From: Zhongshania sp.
GTDB lineage: Bacteria; Pseudomonadota; Gammaproteobacteria; Pseudomonadales; Spongiibacteraceae
Direction of reading: 5' to 3'
Assembly: GCA_018066965.1 (NCBI GenBank)
Contig: JAGPVP010000035.1
Location: 1 to 49,951, forward strand
DNA length: 49,951 nt
Shown: positions 67 through 29,689 of the stretch, piece after piece
How the letters are laid out: each line of letters opens with the position of its first letter
How positions within the stretch are numbered: the stretch's first letter is position 1
The notes under the pieces: model-generated
Databases searched by the model: none
Told to the model about the DNA's origin: nothing
Seen by the model: the letters and a program-made list of their open reading frames with translations, nothing else
Program-made: the position numbers and the translations under genes

Positions 67-139
67 TGAAACGCCCTGTGCGGATCCGCATGCAGGGTGT
101 TGTGGGGGCTGAGGGTTAGAGACCCTCGGCTACCCGATT
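1..139 (+). mobile_element. 3' end of a group II intron, probably class C (attC-targeting type)
   Basis: Bases 72-99 fold as domain V: a 7-bp lower stem (72-78 CGCCCTG with 93-99 CAGGGTG), a two-base bulge on the 3' side (91-92), a 4-bp upper stem (79-82 with 87-90) and a tetraloop. The 5' strand starts with the triad CGC, which is typical of class C introns; most other classes have AGC. Bases 104-135 fold as domain VI: 104-106 with 133-135, 108-115 with 123-130, and A132 unpaired as the branch-point candidate. The intron should end at about 138-139, seven or so bases after A132. It therefore abuts the stop codon of the minus-strand gene at 138-485, with the opposite orientation. That is the arrangement known for class C-attC introns in integron cassettes. 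Only the 3' end is in the window. Confidence 0.75.
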
Positions 140-8570: not shown

Positions 8571-10388
8571 ATGATGAACCAAGAAAAAGCTGTTCTGATT
8601 ACTGATGTCACCCTGCGTGATGGTCACCAATCGCTACTCGCAACACGTATGCGTACCGACGATATGCTGCCGGTTTGCGTCCAGCTCGATGCCATTGGAT
8701 TTTGGTCTTTAGAGGTTTGGGGTGGCGCGACCTTTGACGCTTGCGTGCGTTTTCTAAAAGAAGATCCCTGGGAGCGTTTGCGCAAATTGCGTGACGCGCT
8801 GCCAAACACCAAATTACAAATGTTGGTGCGAGGCCAAAACCTATTGGGTTACCGTCATTATGCCGACGATGTGGTTGAGGCGTTTATTCAAAAATCCGCC
8901 GATAACGGCATGGATATATTCCGTGTTTTCGACGCTATGAACGACGTGCGCAATTTACAAACCGCGATCGCTGCGGTAAAAAAATCTGGCAAGCATGCAC
9001 AGGGCACAATTTGTTATACCACCAGCCCAGTGCATACCACGGCCAAATTTGTAAAGCAGGCTAAGGACATGGTGGCGCTCGGGGTAGACTCCATTGCGAT
9101 AAAAGATATGGCCGGTCTGTTAACGCCAATGGCGACGTCTGAGCTGGTCAGTGCGCTAAAAGATACCGTCGATGTTCCGTTGGCTTTGCACTCCCATATG
9201 ACCTCGGGTCTTGCCGGCTTGTGTCAGTTAAAAGCCATAGAAGCAGGTATCGATATTATCGACACCGCCATGTCGGCCTTCGCCAACGGCACTAGTCACC
9301 CAGCCACCGAAACCATGGTTGCTGCACTTAAAGGCACGCCCAGAGATTCGGGTTTAGATTTGCCAGCCTTACAGGAAATTGCGGCTAAGCTCTGGGAAGT
9401 GCGTAAAAAATATCACCAATTTGAAAGTGAATTTACCCGCGAAGACGTGAGCGTACAGATTAACCAAGTGCCCGGCGGCATGATGTCTAATCTGGCTAAC
9501 CAGCTAAAAGAGCAGGGCGCGTTGAATCGCATTGGCGATGTATTTGCTGAAATTCCTGCGGTCCGCAAAGACCTGGGTTATCCGCCCTTGGTAACGCCAA
9601 CCTCACAAATCGTTGGCACCCAAGCGGTGATGAATATTCTAGCCGACAAACGCTATACCACCATTACCAACGAAGTGAAGCGTTATCTGCAAGGCCATTA
9701 TGGTGCGGCACCGGCTGAGGTAGACAAAGACCTACGGGCCCGCGCGATTGGTAGTGAGGACGTCATCGATGTGCGCCCTGCAGATTTACTGGCGCCAGAA
9801 TTGGCGAAGCTCCGCAAGGAAGTCGGCGAGCTGGCTAAATCAGAAGAAGACGTACTGACCTACGCCATGTTCCCAGATTTAGGTCGCGCATTTTTGACCG
9901 AGCGGGAAGCGGGCACTCTGGTTCCGGAAGTATTAGAGCCTATTGGCCAAGCGACTCGTCCTGTAAGCGAAGGTGGCGTACCAACTGAGTTTGTTATTGA
10001 TGTTCATGGTGAGAGTTATCAGGTTGCTATTACTGGCGTCGGCATTAAAGGGGCAGGTAAGCGTCACATATATATGACGCTGGATGGTATGCCCGAAGAA
10101 GTGGTGTTTGAAGCCCTGAATGAATACAAGGCTGAAGGCGCGAGTGGTCGCAAATCCGCCAGCAAACCAGGCCATGTCAGCACCAATATGCCGGGTAATA
10201 TTGTCGAAGTGTTGGTTGCTGTCGGTGACACAGTGACTGCGGGGCAGCCAGTATTAGTCACCGAAGCTATGAAAATGGAAGCCGAGGTGCAGGCGCCAAT
10301 CAGCGGTAAAATCGTCGAGATCTTTGTTAAGAAAGGTGACCGTGTGACTCCGGGTGAGGTGCTTGTAGAAATTGAGGCGGGTGTATAA
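8571..10388 (+). CDS. pycB: Pyruvate carboxylase subunit B (carboxyltransferase and biotin carrier)
   Basis: 605 aa. The HMGL-like carboxyltransferase domain begins with DVTLRDGHQSLLATR (about residues 12-26), with the metal-binding HSHMTSG and the catalytic-Lys region IKDMAG. It is followed by the conserved carboxylase domain and a C-terminal biotinyl domain with EAMKM, where Lys568 carries biotin. Transfers the carboxyl group from biotin to pyruvate, refilling oxaloacetate. Oxaloacetate decarboxylase alpha subunits are similar, but no beta or gamma subunit genes follow, while a biotin carboxylase precedes it. The start may be the first or second of two adjacent ATG codons; the second has better ribosome-site spacing. 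Confidence 0.9.
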   Translation: MMNQEKAVLITDVTLRDGHQSLLATRMRTDDMLPVCVQLDAIGFWSLEVWGGATFDACVRFLKEDPWERLRKLRDALPNTKLQMLVRGQNLLGYRHYADDVVEAFIQKSADNGMDIFRVFDAMNDVRNLQTAIAAVKKSGKHAQGTICYTTSPVHTTAKFVKQAKDMVALGVDSIAIKDMAGLLTPMATSELVSALKDTVDVPLALHSHMTSGLAGLCQLKAIEAGIDIIDTAMSAFANGTSHPATETMVAALKGTPRDSGLDLPALQEIAAKLWEVRKKYHQFESEFTREDVSVQINQVPGGMMSNLANQLKEQGALNRIGDVFAEIPAVRKDLGYPPLVTPTSQIVGTQAVMNILADKRYTTITNEVKRYLQGHYGAAPAEVDKDLRARAIGSEDVIDVRPADLLAPELAKLRKEVGELAKSEEDVLTYAMFPDLGRAFLTEREAGTLVPEVLEPIGQATRPVSEGGVPTEFVIDVHGESYQVAITGVGIKGAGKRHIYMTLDGMPEEVVFEALNEYKAEGASGRKSASKPGHVSTNMPGNIVEVLVAVGDTVTAGQPVLVTEAMKMEAEVQAPISGKIVEIFVKKGDRVTPGEVLVEIEAGV

Positions 10389-10417: not shown

Positions 10418-10447
10418 TTGCGATTTTAACTGATAATCATTATCATT
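10418..10447 (+). promoter_or_regulatory. Promoter with perfect Fur box for the downstream small RNA
   Basis: The -35 TTGCGA (10418-10423), a 17-bp spacer and the -10 TATCAT (10441-10446) make a good sigma-70 promoter. The Fur box GATAATCATTATCATT occupies 10432-10447, overlapping the -10, so iron-loaded Fur would block transcription. Predicted start about 10453-10454. Confidence 0.75.
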
Positions 10448-10453
10448 TAAATC

Positions 10454-10550
10454 AAGTCAGAGCGGTGCTCAATGTGAGCCCCCATTTACACAGTGCCTCC
10501 CTGATTCTCTCCGATTTGCCCCGCATTCAGCAGTGAATGCGGGGTTTTTT
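10454..10550 (+). ncRNA. Candidate Fur-repressed small RNA (RyhB/PrrF-like)
   Basis: About 95 nt from the predicted start to the end of the terminator, the size of RyhB. Architecture: a 5' hairpin GCTCA-ATG-TGAGC (10467-10479), a pyrimidine-rich unpaired stretch (about 10480-10518) containing CCTCCC and TCTCTCC that could pair with ribosome-binding sites, and an 11-bp terminator hairpin with a U run. No ORF of useful size is present. By analogy with RyhB and PrrF it would be made under iron starvation and repress iron-using proteins. It could also be the tail of the pyc mRNA; the promoter argues for independent transcription. I see no primary-sequence match to RyhB that I would trust. Confidence 0.6.
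10519..10550 (+). terminator. Rho-independent terminator of the sRNA candidate and pycAB
   Basis: A perfect 11-bp stem, CCCCGCATTCA (10519-10529) with TGAATGCGGGG (10534-10544), tetraloop GCAG, then six T. It is the only terminator after pycB and is therefore probably shared. Confidence 0.92.
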
Positions 10551-10574
10551 ATGCCTAGATAGATGTGTGGCCGA

Positions 10575-10853
10575 TTAGTTGCGGTAAATAGTTTGAATTA
10601 GGTGGTAACCAAACTGAGTTTTAACGGGGCCGTGAACGTCTAAAACAGATTCCTTAAACACCACATCATCAAAGGGTTTCACCATTTGACCGGGACGAAA
10701 CTCGCCGAGATCGCCACCTTTTTTGCCTGATGGGCAGTCAGAGAATTTCTTAGCTAAATCACCGAAATCAGCGCCTTTGGCAATTTGGTTTTTTAAGTCT
10801 TGGGCTTGTTCTTGAGTTTTTACCAGAATGTGGCGTGCACTAGCGACGGTCAT
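10575..10853 (-). CDS. ppiC: Parvulin-type peptidyl-prolyl cis-trans isomerase, PpiC-like
   Basis: 92 aa, the size of cytoplasmic single-domain E. coli PpiC (93 aa). It has the parvulin pattern ARHILVKT at the start, [15 protein letters not shown] in the middle and [13 protein letters not shown] at the end, including the conserved active-site His and Cys positions. No signal peptide. It accelerates proline isomerisation during protein folding. A monocistronic gene, convergent with the terminator of the pyc/sRNA unit. Confidence 0.9.
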
Positions 10854-23376: not shown

Positions 23377-23458
23377 GTAGTTTTTGCAAAGTTTGGGGTC
23401 GGTATAGATAGTTAAAAGGTATCGATATGGAATAAACAATTAATTATACTAATTTATT

Positions 23459-23474
23459 GATAATCATTATCATT
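23459..23474. promoter_or_regulatory. Perfect Fur box upstream of the DUF2061 gene
   Basis: GATAATCATTATCATT, identical to the box at 10432-10447. It lies 72 bp upstream of the DUF2061 start and just downstream of TATACT (about 23446-23451), a possible -10. Iron-dependent repression is inferred. Confidence 0.7.
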
Positions 23475-23546
23475 TGCTTCGTGGTCTAGCGACGTTCTTA
23501 TCGTTAAGTCCAAATCATTTACCTAACAATGACCGAAGAGGCCATT

Positions 23547-23765
23547 ATGAAAAAGACTATCAGTTTCGCCATGATGCATTTCTGCGTGGCTTTTTCCGTA
23601 GCTTACATACTGACTGGTAGCGCGGTTGTTGGTGGCATGTTGGCCCTGATCGAACCTGCGGTGAACACAGTGGTGTTTTACTTCCACGAGAAAGCATGGA
23701 CACGCTTTGACAACGCGCCGCGTGCATTGCGGAACGATGCCGCAATGGCGGTGGTGAGGATTTAA
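23547..23765 (+). CDS. DUF2061 small membrane protein
   Basis: 72 aa from the ATG at 23547 (GAGG 8 bases upstream; an ATG at 23529 in the same frame has no site). MKKTISFAMMHF, AYILTGSAVVGG and ALIEPAVNTVVFYFHEKAW are the DUF2061 blocks. Two membrane helices (about 5-24 and 29-48). Function unknown. The perfect Fur box upstream suggests it is made under iron limitation. Single gene, followed by a hairpin repeat. Confidence 0.82.
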   Translation: MKKTISFAMMHFCVAFSVAYILTGSAVVGGMLALIEPAVNTVVFYFHEKAWTRFDNAPRALRNDAAMAVVRI

Positions 23766-26471: not shown

Positions 26472-26742
26472 TGGCATTCTCCGTCTTGGTTTCGCGAGCT
26501 TGCTGATAGTAGTCTTCTTCGCGCATTAAGCCTTTGCGCATCCACTTAGCAACCAGTACTAATACAACACAGCCGATAAAGCCGTAGAGCGGATAAAAGC
26601 CATACAGGCCCTCTAGCGGGTGTTCTGTGTGCCGATGAATGACAAAATCCAGGCCAAATAACAGGCCACACATCGCGTACAAGCTGTAGAGAATACCGCG
26701 CAAGGTTTCGGGGCGATCAAAAAAATCTTGAGACTTGCTCAT
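26458..26742 (-). CDS. Unknown 94-aa membrane subunit inside the Mrp-like operon
   Basis: 94 aa with two hydrophobic helices: about 14-33 (GILYSLYAMCGLLFGLDFVI) and 46-66 (LYGFYPLYGFIGCVVLVLVA). The loop between them is HRHTEHPLEGLYG and the tail is basic then acidic (RKGLMREEDYYQQARETKTEN). It overlaps the gene before it by four bases (ATGA) and the gene after it by 14, so it is tightly coupled. None of the standard Mrp subunits A to G matches. I infer a small structural subunit of the complex. Confidence 0.75.
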   Translation of the reverse strand: MSKSQDFFDRPETLRGILYSLYAMCGLLFGLDFVIHRHTEHPLEGLYGFYPLYGFIGCVVLVLVAKWMRKGLMREEDYYQQARETKTENANGGD

Positions 26743-28214
26743 GGCCTTCCCTCGCTAAAAATCTGTGATACCAGCTCAAATAGCGGGTTTGGAAAGAAAA
26801 ATAGCAATACGCATGCGCTAGCAGTGGAGCATATCGCAAGGAGTGCCGCGGGTGGCGCCTCGTGAATGGTAACGAGCCCCGCGACTGCCTGTTTACTCGG
26901 AAAGAAGGCGCGCAGTGGGATCGGTAGTAAGTAGGCGATATTTAGCAGCGAGCTGAGTATTAGTACTGCCATTAAAATCAGGTGGTCCGTCTCTAAAGTG
27001 GCGGTTAGTAGCCACCACTTGCTCCACGTTCCCGCGGTGGGCGGTAGCCCGATAATACTTAGTGAGGCGATAAAAAATGCCGCCATGGTGATTGGCATGA
27101 TTCGCCCCAGACCGGCCATCGAACTAATCTCACTCTTGTGGCTAGCCACGAGTATCGCGCCAGCGCAGAAGAATAGGGTGATCTTGCCTAGCGCATGGGT
27201 CGCGATATGCATTGCGCTGCCCATTACACCGCTTTCAACGGCGAGTAAGGTTCCCAAGGTGATATAGCCGAGTTGGCTAATGGTGGAGTAGGCGAGGCGG
27301 GCTTTGAGATTGTCTTGGCGCAGCGCTATTAGCGAAGCCAGCACGACACCGGCACCAGCTAGGTAGAGAAGATAGTCGCTTACCGGTATTTGTTGCAGCG
27401 TATCTAGGCCAAAGATGAAGACCAGAATTTTGATCAGGCTGAATACGCCAGCCTTGACCACCGCAACGGCGTGGAGAAGGGCGCTAACCGGGGTAGGAGC
27501 CACCATTGCCGCCGGAAGCCAGCGGTGAAAAGGCATGACCGCTGCCTTGGCGACACCAAAAACAAATAGGACTAGCAATAGTGACAGCAACGCGATTGGA
27601 GTTTGCTCGGGGAAAATGCCGCCTTGTTGAAAGTCTAGCGTGCCTGCCACCAGCCACGTGATGATAATAGCAGGGAGAAAAAAGGCGATAGACGTGCCCA
27701 TTAATATTCCCAGATAAACTCTGCCGCCCTTTTTGGCTTTTTCGGTACCCGCGTGAGTGACGAGAGGATAGGTACACAGTGAAAGTACTTCGTAAAAAAT
27801 GAACAAGGTGAATAGGTTTTCTGCGTAGGCAATGGCCATTACCGCTGCGATGGCAGTAGCAAAACACGCGTAGAAACGTGTTTGGTAGTCTTCGTTGTGG
27901 CCGCGCATATAACCAATCGCGTACAAGGTAGTTACTGGCCACAGCAGACTGGCAACTAGCCCAAACAGGAGTCCTAGGGCATCGACTCTGAAGCTTAAAT
28001 TTAGACCGGGCAGTATTTCTAGCCACTGGCGTGAGAGCGCTTCACCGTGATTAAAACTGGAGTACAGCTTCAGATTAATCACTAAAAGGGTCACGCCGGC
28101 GATAAGGGATATGGCTTCGCGCAGATTTGGTTTTTTGCTGAACGCCAGTATGCCTATCACCGCAATAATGGGCGTGAGAATGGCGACGTCAATTAGCACA
28201 GTTGTTGTATCCAT
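26739..28214 (-). CDS. Mrp-like antiporter subunit, NuoL/MrpA-type core (second of three)
   Basis: 491 aa, about 14 helices. The block APTPVSALLHAVAVVKAGVFSLIKI is characteristic of the NuoL/MrpA side of the family; it includes the His and Lys of the proton path. ENLFTLFIFYEVLSLCTYPLVTH has the first conserved Glu. It lacks the long MrpA C-terminal domains (these reside in the 328-aa gene at 30036-31022). The start overlaps the previous stop by one base (TAATG). Confidence 0.85.
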   Translation of the reverse strand: MDTTTVLIDVAILTPIIAVIGILAFSKKPNLREAISLIAGVTLLVINLKLYSSFNHGEALSRQWLEILPGLNLSFRVDALGLLFGLVASLLWPVTTLYAIGYMRGHNEDYQTRFYACFATAIAAVMAIAYAENLFTLFIFYEVLSLCTYPLVTHAGTEKAKKGGRVYLGILMGTSIAFFLPAIIITWLVAGTLDFQQGGIFPEQTPIALLSLLLVLFVFGVAKAAVMPFHRWLPAAMVAPTPVSALLHAVAVVKAGVFSLIKILVFIFGLDTLQQIPVSDYLLYLAGAGVVLASLIALRQDNLKARLAYSTISQLGYITLGTLLAVESGVMGSAMHIATHALGKITLFFCAGAILVASHKSEISSMAGLGRIMPITMAAFFIASLSIIGLPPTAGTWSKWWLLTATLETDHLILMAVLILSSLLNIAYLLPIPLRAFFPSKQAVAGLVTIHEAPPAALLAICSTASACVLLFFFPNPLFELVSQIFSEGRP

Positions 28215-29689
28215 TATGGACGCCCCTCTACCAATGCTGCGGCTGCTTCATAGCTGATCGATATCGGTAAACGGGTGTCGATACCAAAATAGACATTGCC
28301 TAGAATAAGCAGCCAGAGCGCAATAAGCATAGTGAGTGGGGCTTCTTTTACTGGAGAGTTATCTGCTGCTGATTTGAAGTAGAGTGCTTCTACTACTCGC
28401 CATATATAGATAATGGCTAGCAGTGAACCCAATAGAATTAAAAACACTAATGGCCAGCGGCCCGCCAGCGCGGCAGCAGATACCAAATACCATTTGCTGA
28501 TAAAGCCAGCGGTAAGTGGAACACCAATTAAGCTGAGGCCGCCGGCAACAAAGCCAAAGCTGGTCCAGGGCATTTTTCTCCCCAGTCCCTGCATCGAGGT
28601 AAGGGTTGTGGCGCCGATGCGAACCGCAATCCCAGCCAAGGCCATAAACAATGTGGCTTTCATCAATGCGTGGTTGAAAACATGAATCAAGGTGGCCTGT
28701 AGCCCCAGCACGCCGCCGATACCCAAGCCGATAACCATATAGCCAATCTGCGCGATACTGGAATAGGCGATGGCGCGTTTTATTTCTTCTTGATAAATCG
28801 CCACAATCGACGCGCTGAATACTGCGAGAACGCCTAAGGCAACAAAGATATCCGCCAGTGGTATAACGAGCTGGCTAAACTCGCTTGGGAAAATGGTGTA
28901 GGTAAAACGGATTAATAGATAAAGGGCTACCTTGGTGGCGCTGGCGGCCAGGAAGGTTGTCACAATCGATGGTGCTTGGCTGTAAGCGTTCGGCAACCAC
29001 AGATGCAGTGGAAATAGTGCGAGTTTTAAACTGATGCCAACAAGAATAAACGCATAGGCGGCAAATACCGTAGAAGACTCGCCAGCTGGTGGCAGGCGTT
29101 GCGCGAGATCCTGCATATTGAGGGTGCCGGTCATGATATACATGAGGCCAATGCCGATGAGGATAAACGTCGCCCCAGTCGTGCCCATAATTAGGTAGCG
29201 AAATGCAGCCCATAAACTTTTTCTATTGGGGCCTAAGGAAATAAGTGTGTAGGTCGACAGCGATGAAATTTCCAAAAAAACAAAGACGTTAAACGCATCT
29301 CCTGTTGCTAAAATTCCCAGCAAACCGGCGAGACAGAGTAGCCACGCCACATAAAATAAGCCCTGCTTATCTAAAGAAATCTCAGTGCTAATACTGCTCT
29401 GCGCCGCTAGTAGAGAAACCGTACTACTGGCAGAAACAATGACGAGCAACCACGCATTGAGCAGATCAATTCTGTACTCAATTCCCCAAGGCGCTTGCCA
29501 GCCACCTAAGGCATAGCTAATTACGCCATGATTGTAGACCGTAGTTAGCAGTATGGCGGCGATGCAAAAACTGAGGGCGCTGACTAGCAGGGCGAATAGC
29601 CATGCGAGTTTGCCTCGACCTAAAATAAGGCAGGCGGGTGCCCCTAGCAGTGGCAGAATGACTTGCAGAATAGGTAAATGGCTTAACAC
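28214..29689 (-). CDS. mrpD: Mrp-like antiporter subunit D (first of three)
   Basis: 491 aa, the length of typical MrpD. Fourteen helices. Glu in NVFVFLEISSLSTYTLIS, Lys in TTFLAASATKVALYLLIRF, and HVFNHALMKATLFMALAGI are the family's proton-path blocks. It follows MrpC with a 7-bp overlap, the canonical mrpC-mrpD order. I am confident of subfamily MrpD here; the other two homologues in the operon are more diverged. Confidence 0.88.
   Translation of the reverse strand: MLSHLPILQVILPLLGAPACLILGRGKLAWLFALLVSALSFCIAAILLTTVYNHGVISYALGGWQAPWGIEYRIDLLNAWLLVIVSASSTVSLLAAQSSISTEISLDKQGLFYVAWLLCLAGLLGILATGDAFNVFVFLEISSLSTYTLISLGPNRKSLWAAFRYLIMGTTGATFILIGIGLMYIMTGTLNMQDLAQRLPPAGESSTVFAAYAFILVGISLKLALFPLHLWLPNAYSQAPSIVTTFLAASATKVALYLLIRFTYTIFPSEFSQLVIPLADIFVALGVLAVFSASIVAIYQEEIKRAIAYSSIAQIGYMVIGLGIGGVLGLQATLIHVFNHALMKATLFMALAGIAVRIGATTLTSMQGLGRKMPWTSFGFVAGGLSLIGVPLTAGFISKWYLVSAAALAGRWPLVFLILLGSLLAIIYIWRVVEALYFKSAADNSPVKEAPLTMLIALWLLILGNVYFGIDTRLPISISYEAAAALVEGRP

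Follow-up and report, generated by a model that had tools for sequence, protein, structure and literature searches.

A candidate Fur-repressed iron-sparing small RNA downstream of pycB in Zhongshania and related genera

The window analysed here is a stretch of 49,951 nucleotides from a Zhongshania sp. contig. Behind its pycB gene lies a candidate small RNA gene which is likely to encode a lineage-specific, Fur-repressed, trans-acting iron-sparing RNA acting on sdhC and probably on sodB. The original prediction had proposed the iron-sparing RNA of this lineage at this place, and that proposal is supported by the conservation of the whole unit, by the lack of a PrrF match at the cut-off and by complementarity to sdhC and sodB. 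In the best reading, the RNA would be analogous to PrrF and RyhB and not demonstrably homologous to them, with a small chance of remote descent. The genomic evidence suggests that it lowers succinate dehydrogenase, and perhaps superoxide dismutase, under iron scarcity.

The locus and the predicted RNA

The small RNA gene (10453-10550, plus strand, about 98 nt, with the start placed from the -10 hexamer) follows pycB (8571-10388, plus strand; pyruvate carboxylase subunit B or oxaloacetate decarboxylase alpha type) and faces a convergent PpiC-type peptidylprolyl isomerase gene (10575-10853, minus strand). Among named proteins, this PycB is closest to the ones from Zhongshania sp. BJYM1 and Z. 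aquimaris (96%). The element is single-copy in its own assembly, which is 84% complete. As predicted for a stretch of about 95 nt, the RNA region has no conserved reading frame; a 23-aa GTG frame on the plus strand is broken because of one-base gaps in G008, G007, and G005.

A sigma70-type promoter (10418-10446, plus strand) was found with the predicted 17-nt spacer between a -35 hexamer TTGCGA (10418-10423) and a -10 hexamer TATCAT (10441-10446). Overlapping the -10 hexamer is a putative Fur box, identified by motif score as a perfect 15-nt palindrome, TGATAATcATTATCA (10431-10445, unstranded). The palindrome, TGATAATCATTATCA, agrees with the Fur consensus at 14 of 14 positions; the original prediction had a perfect 16-bp Fur box here. 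The predicted perfect terminator was recovered by a terminator scan at 10518-10550 (plus strand), with a 12-bp stem at 10518-10545 and a T run to 10550. Taken alone, the promoter and terminator matches are at chance level: in 601 bases scanned there are 2 promoter-like sites versus 0.8 +/- 1.0 in shuffles, and 1 terminator-like site versus 0.7 +/- 0.9. The case rests on the fold, the palindrome, and conservation.

The RNA at 10453-10551 has a predicted folding energy of -39.1 kcal/mol (z -5.5), which none of 200 shuffles equals. The predicted 5′ hairpin occupies 10455-10506 (plus strand), where the original prediction had a hairpin too, and shows compensatory changes among the members. Its apical loop is C-rich (CCCCCA, 10479-10484, plus strand). 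Between the hairpin and the terminator lies an 11-nt linker, CUCUCCGAUUU, which is unpaired in the predicted fold; unpaired sequence is conserved in the C-rich loop and in CTCTCCGATTT (10507-10517). An invariant CTCTCC at 10507-10512 (plus strand), unpaired in the predicted fold and complementary to the sdhC leader and to the sodB Shine-Dalgarno sequence, was recognised as invariant prior to any target search; CCCCC is present 5′ of it in all 14 members. A nearby CCTCCC, formerly put forward as the single-stranded pairing region, belongs to the 5′ hairpin (3′ arm), where four of its six bases are paired, and occurs in only 4 of the 14 members. The likely seed would be CTCTCC rather than CCTCCC.

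The arms of the 5′ hairpin were also exchanged between species, using 11 of the 14 sequences (the near-duplicates G017 and G013 and the decayed G005 were excluded). Own arms pair with a mean of -24.8 kcal/mol versus -15.7 kcal/mol for exchanged arms, and 0 of 20,000 permutations were as good. For six S-type sequences alone, the values are -30.7 and -20.2 kcal/mol. Only 5 of 11 rows and 7 of 11 columns had the own partner as the top one, largely owing to the similarity among the Zhongshania members. The covariation score of the 14-sequence R2 alignment, which was fitted to the structure, is 0.599; shuffles give 0.203, and slid alignments no more than 0.123.

Distribution and losses in relatives

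How widely is this element distributed? I searched the genus g1 as delimited by the tool, which spans Zhongshania, Spongiibacter, and Neomelitea (18 genomes). The element was found in 14 of the 18 genomes, and the region between the Fur box and the terminator, on the conservation of which the proposal depended, is conserved in the relatives. BLAST recovered a complete or nearly complete element in 7 of the 18, the own genome included. The covariance model R1 gave weak matches directly behind pycB in G001, G006, and G011, and a pattern derived from the R1 finds, CTCTCCGTATTNGCCCC, occurs in 6 of 140 genomes, every one of them in g1. R1 missed four S-type members (G003, G012, G013, and G014), which were caught by the pattern or, as with G014, by reading the sequence behind pycB.

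By motif, an own promoter with a conserved Fur box, as expected of this functional class, is present in 13 of the 14 members. These 13, the own genome included, score 11-14 of 14 positions, and the remaining one, G005, scores at most 9. In a simple consensus scan, TTG....17 nt....TAT..T is the top pair in 9 of the 14 members, while other hexamers were chosen in 5. In 2.08 Mb of g1 sequence, which contains the RNA loci by design, 11 sites score at least 13 of 14, and 10 of them are this promoter across genomes; the eleventh lies at 23458 of the window. One mononucleotide shuffle of the same 2.08 Mb has 0 such sites.

In locus L035 of G004, another gene follows pycB, and the element with its Fur promoter comes after that gene. 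The flank in G007 has the same look, with an extra gene between pycB and the element. Thus, the element is a unit of its own. Judged by eye, the interposed gene of G004 (L035 6012-7709) is von Willebrand A-like, and similar gene ends are seen in G007 and G010.

Might the locus simply hold the pycB terminator and a chance Fur-like box, with no separate RNA? No other terminator-like site was found by the scan between the pycB stop codon and 10518, the promoter and terminator do not exceed chance by themselves, and at the corresponding place G015, whose genome lacks the RNA, bears a plain terminator-like hairpin. However, 13 genomes retain the Fur box, hairpin, seed, and terminator as one set, also where another gene intervenes after pycB, and the compensatory changes and the empty shuffle do not fit a chance box. 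A terminator alone is therefore a very improbable explanation, and a separate RNA gene is preferred.

The genomes without the element are G002, G009, G010, and G015. In G010, R1 scores 36.9 bits where the element would be expected (L292 8015-8105); this match was called a remnant since its best Fur score is 8 of 14 and CTCTCC is missing. In this remnant, TCTCA is complementary to the sdhC loop TGAGA of the same genome over five bases, perhaps by chance. The pycB stretch of G015 holds only the plain hairpin mentioned above, and those of G002 and G009 have no R1 match. G005 was treated as decayed, based on a best Fur score of 9 of 14, the lack of a TTG at the -35 place, and a different predicted 5′ hairpin. 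In a tree of AcnB and PycB, G002, G010, and G015 form one clade, while G009, whose position inside its own clade is weakly supported, and G005 are placed elsewhere. This indicates three separate losses or decays of the RNA. Since the genomes are related, the genome counts are not independent, and three losses is the fair count.

Outside g1, the model R2 was run against 293 genomes of the order and gave matches in 87 at E <=0.05, the best of them outside g1 having an E value of 7e-7. Beyond the five strongest, 25 R2 loci were inspected, and a Fur box above 10 of 14 was present only in G017, an already-known member. No members outside g1 were found in these 293 genomes with the 25 weaker loci inspected, though diverged ones may escape such a search.

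Relation to known iron-sparing RNAs

In the window, the small RNA has no Rfam match at the cut-off, and RyhB (RF00057) has none at the cut-off anywhere in the window. Weak matches to anti-hemB, the beta-proteobacterial toxic RNA, NmsRb, NsiR1, and PrrF in the window and 13 member loci were set aside, as all are below the cut-off; in the alignments available, most of the match comes from the terminator and adjacent C/U-rich bases. At the left edge of the window (69-138) lies its sole Rfam match at the cut-off, a group II intron (RF00029, 48.6 bits).

Is the RNA a strongly diverged PrrF, that is, the same gene by descent with its core lost? In the own genome, the PrrF model (RF00444) fits best at this RNA, at 16.1 bits with a cut-off of 90. 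The best score among g1 also falls at this locus (G011, 35.4 bits, E 3.7e-4), and the G011 loop reads CCCCCCTCATCAC, with a partial likeness to the PrrF core. However, the alignment attributes the G011 score mainly to the Fur box and terminator, and the core CTCCTCATCA is present in 12 of 12 PrrF-like loci of the order among the matches listed but in 0 of the 14 members. No g1 genome has PrrF at the cut-off, while in 140 genomes of the order the cut-off is passed in 4, with matches in 25 at E <=0.01. Since the score is far below 90 bits and the core is absent, membership in PrrF fails, and descent from PrrF is doubtful. The window search and the PrrF scores also agree with the statement in the original prediction that no match to RyhB or PrrF could be trusted.

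The preferred reading is thus one of analogy, and an analogy of function with known Fur-repressed iron-sparing RNAs is well supported. The targets of PrrF1 and PrrF2 in Pseudomonas include sdhC and sodB, as do those of RyhB in enterobacteria, according to PMC7377471. The RNA described here resembles PrrF1 and PrrF2 in the Fur box over the promoter, the intrinsic terminator (a Fur-controlled promoter plus terminator being present at the motif level), the taxonomic order of the host, and the iron-protein targets, here predicted. It differs from them in the absent core, the 16-35 bits against a cut-off of 90, the single copy in the own assembly, and another seed. Its likeness to RyhB would lie in Fur repression, here by motif, and in sdhC and sodB as targets. 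In the same paper, BrrF of Burkholderia is an iron-sparing RNA without similarity to known RNAs that acts on sdhC and sodB, and it is described there as having no Fur box directly upstream, unlike the present RNA. PMC5586341 describes NrrF of Neisseria as an iron-sparing RNA acting on sdhC. The sequences of BrrF and NrrF were compared with this RNA through Rfam only.

PMC9410917 describes C-rich single-stranded parts of IsrR (Staphylococcus) and FsrA (Bacillus) which meet the Shine-Dalgarno sequences of iron-protein mRNAs, some of those of IsrR sitting in hairpin loops. Such C-rich parts recall the present RNA, while the hosts are Gram-positive and IsrR has another structure and promoter. BrrF, NrrF, and IsrR indicate that other RNAs fill the iron-sparing role in other lineages. 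I found no small RNA work on Zhongshania in the literature, and the titles of the matches listed include no RNA study of the g1 genera.

Predicted targets and mode of action

GGAGAG, the complement of CTCTCC, sits within an sdhC leader hairpin in each of the 13 genomes whose RNA is intact, and in 0 of 5 genomes in which the RNA is lost or decayed. This co-loss supports sdh, one of the targets first proposed. A conserved TATAATG box precedes the hairpin, and the start codon follows it. Its stem varies in both arms among species (CCGGA/UUCGG, CUGAG/CUCAG, and CCGGG/CCCGG), while the loop motif is constant. In G005, the hairpin is retained with UUAGAGAA, and G002 and G010 have AUGAGA-type loops. 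In whole-leader folds, 4 of the 6 GGAGAG bases are unpaired in the Zhongshania types, 5-6 in the others, and 0 of 6 in G003, where the motif is in a loop in the local fold only.

The start regions (-150 to +30) were compared where at least 9 of the 13 RNA-bearing genomes and 4 of the 5 others were represented. In the resulting 50 orthologous regions, 139 gene/hexamer pairs are shared by every available RNA-bearing genome, and only one of the 139, GGAGAG of sdhC, is missing from all genomes without the RNA. The sodB region had fallen out of the non-overlapping ORF set, probably due to an alternative start, and was re-added for the count of 50. A third region sharing the sdhC pattern in an overlapping-ORF count was dropped; by its coordinates, it appears to belong to an ORF opposite pycB, whose upstream sequence is the complement of the RNA itself.

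By predicted energy, sdhC ranks first or second in 6 of 6 Zhongshania types. The seven S-type genomes have ranks of 1, 3, 5, 6, 16, 23, and 25, the last three being those of G001, G006, and G003 versus 29, 63, and 66 background regions. In S-type (Spongiibacter) genomes, the predicted pairing energies often do not stand out. The pairing between the RNA and sdhC is only about 6-10 bp long.

I lean towards the view that an unrelated RNA has replaced PrrF here and that the docking hairpin loop of sdhC is kept only while the RNA exists, with three independent co-losses. If true, iron sparing by RNA would have one more solution, seemingly an independent one, in marine bacteria that lack PrrF as judged by the model. 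It would also be a natural experiment in which the RNA and its target site vanish together on three branches, so that the target can be read from genomes alone.

A GGA in a hairpin loop is also a feature of CsrA-type binding sites. It was therefore considered whether the RNA is real while GGAGAG of sdhC serves a CsrA/RsmA-type factor, or whether the leader of sdhC soaks up the RNA as a sponge. ANGGA is present in 3 of the 13 sdhC loops (G006, G012, and G013). In contrast, 10 of the 13 loops lack it, and GGAGAG disappears along with the RNA on all three branches, which speaks against a CsrA-type site. Taken together, these two readings are quite unlikely, though the leader may act as a sponge. 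There is a small chance that the RNA is Fur-controlled with its main targets elsewhere, for example via the C-rich loop, sdhC and sodB being minor ones. The survey spanned only 50 start regions, and CCCCC is kept in all 14 members while none of the loop-complementary hexamers tried is conserved in those regions. On the other side, the sdhC pattern is unique among the regions examined, and sdhC remains the favoured target.

The evidence for sodB, also among the proposed targets, is divided. Its Shine-Dalgarno sequence is GGAGAGA in 12 of 12 RNA-bearing genomes; a 10-bp pairing of GGAGAGAATC with GATTCTCTCC is predicted in the Zhongshania types, where sodB takes the first rank versus 62-73 background regions in 5 of 5. 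The ranks in seven S-type genomes are 2, 2, 5, 5, 5, 26, and 27, of which 26 and 27 are those of G013 and G012 versus 65 and 61 background regions. The complementarity thus stands, while a co-loss does not: GGAGAGA is kept in 4 of the 5 genomes without an intact RNA (G002, G010, G015, and G005), with GGAGGAT in its place in G009, and when paired with the RNA of a relative, the sodB site also ranks first in 3 of the 4 genomes of this kind that were tested. Since GGAGAGA is kept where the RNA is lost or decayed, sodB does not discriminate and GGAGAGA may be a plain Shine-Dalgarno sequence. In the own incomplete assembly, sodB was not found. Aconitase, another target first proposed, was rejected for the CTCTCC seed, as acnB has no GGAGAG. 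A conserved unpaired seed thus matches leaders of iron-protein genes, with co-loss for sdhC, without it for sodB, and with no match for acnB. Complementarity is thus seen for two of the four targets first proposed.

How might the RNA act? Iron-loaded Fur would block the promoter, and iron shortage would let the RNA of about 98 nt be transcribed. The stable 5′ hairpin would expose its C-rich loop, while the seed would be CTCTCC, unpaired and 5′ of the terminator. Its partner in sdhC would be GGAGAG in the hairpin loop, some 65-80 nt upstream of the start codon; in sodB it would probably be GGAGAGA, so that the Shine-Dalgarno sequence would be covered. The sdhC motif is 77-82 nt before a conserved downstream GTG, which would put it about 65-70 nt before a likely upstream GTG. 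This distance makes direct ribosome blocking unlikely.

Sites far upstream of a start codon are used by Spot 42 and GlnZ as well, neither of which is known to be iron-controlled. In PMC9731577, Spot 42 binds far upstream of sdhC, recruits Hfq to the start region and represses, and GlnZ on sucA is a precedent for repression from such a site. For sdhC, a Spot 42-like recruitment of Hfq to the start region would be possible, or cleavage by RNase E. Hfq may assist the pairing; an Hfq gene was found in 17 of the 18 g1 genomes but not in the own incomplete assembly. The direction, repression and not activation, is assumed by reference to how Fur-repressed RNAs are known to work. The most likely outcome would be less succinate dehydrogenase and less superoxide dismutase (Fe/Mn family), with iron being spared.

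Other Fur-like boxes were noted in these sequences. A second perfect palindrome, TGATAATCATTATCA, is present in the window at 23458-23472, upstream of a gene for a small DUF2061 membrane protein (23529-23765, plus strand), of which it may possibly be an iron-regulated promoter. A Fur-like box also adjoins a conserved protein of 158-164 aa in L002 (1501-1530), L012, and L013 (both 1501-1525); the L012 copy of this protein has no Pfam match. By eye, the neighbourhood of the box includes a short-chain dehydrogenase in two loci (L002 and L013) and an MscS-like protein in each of the three. Elsewhere in the window (26739-29689, minus strand), two adjacent Proton_antipo_M proteins of 491 aa each are encoded, which are of the Mrp antiporter or NADH dehydrogenase type.
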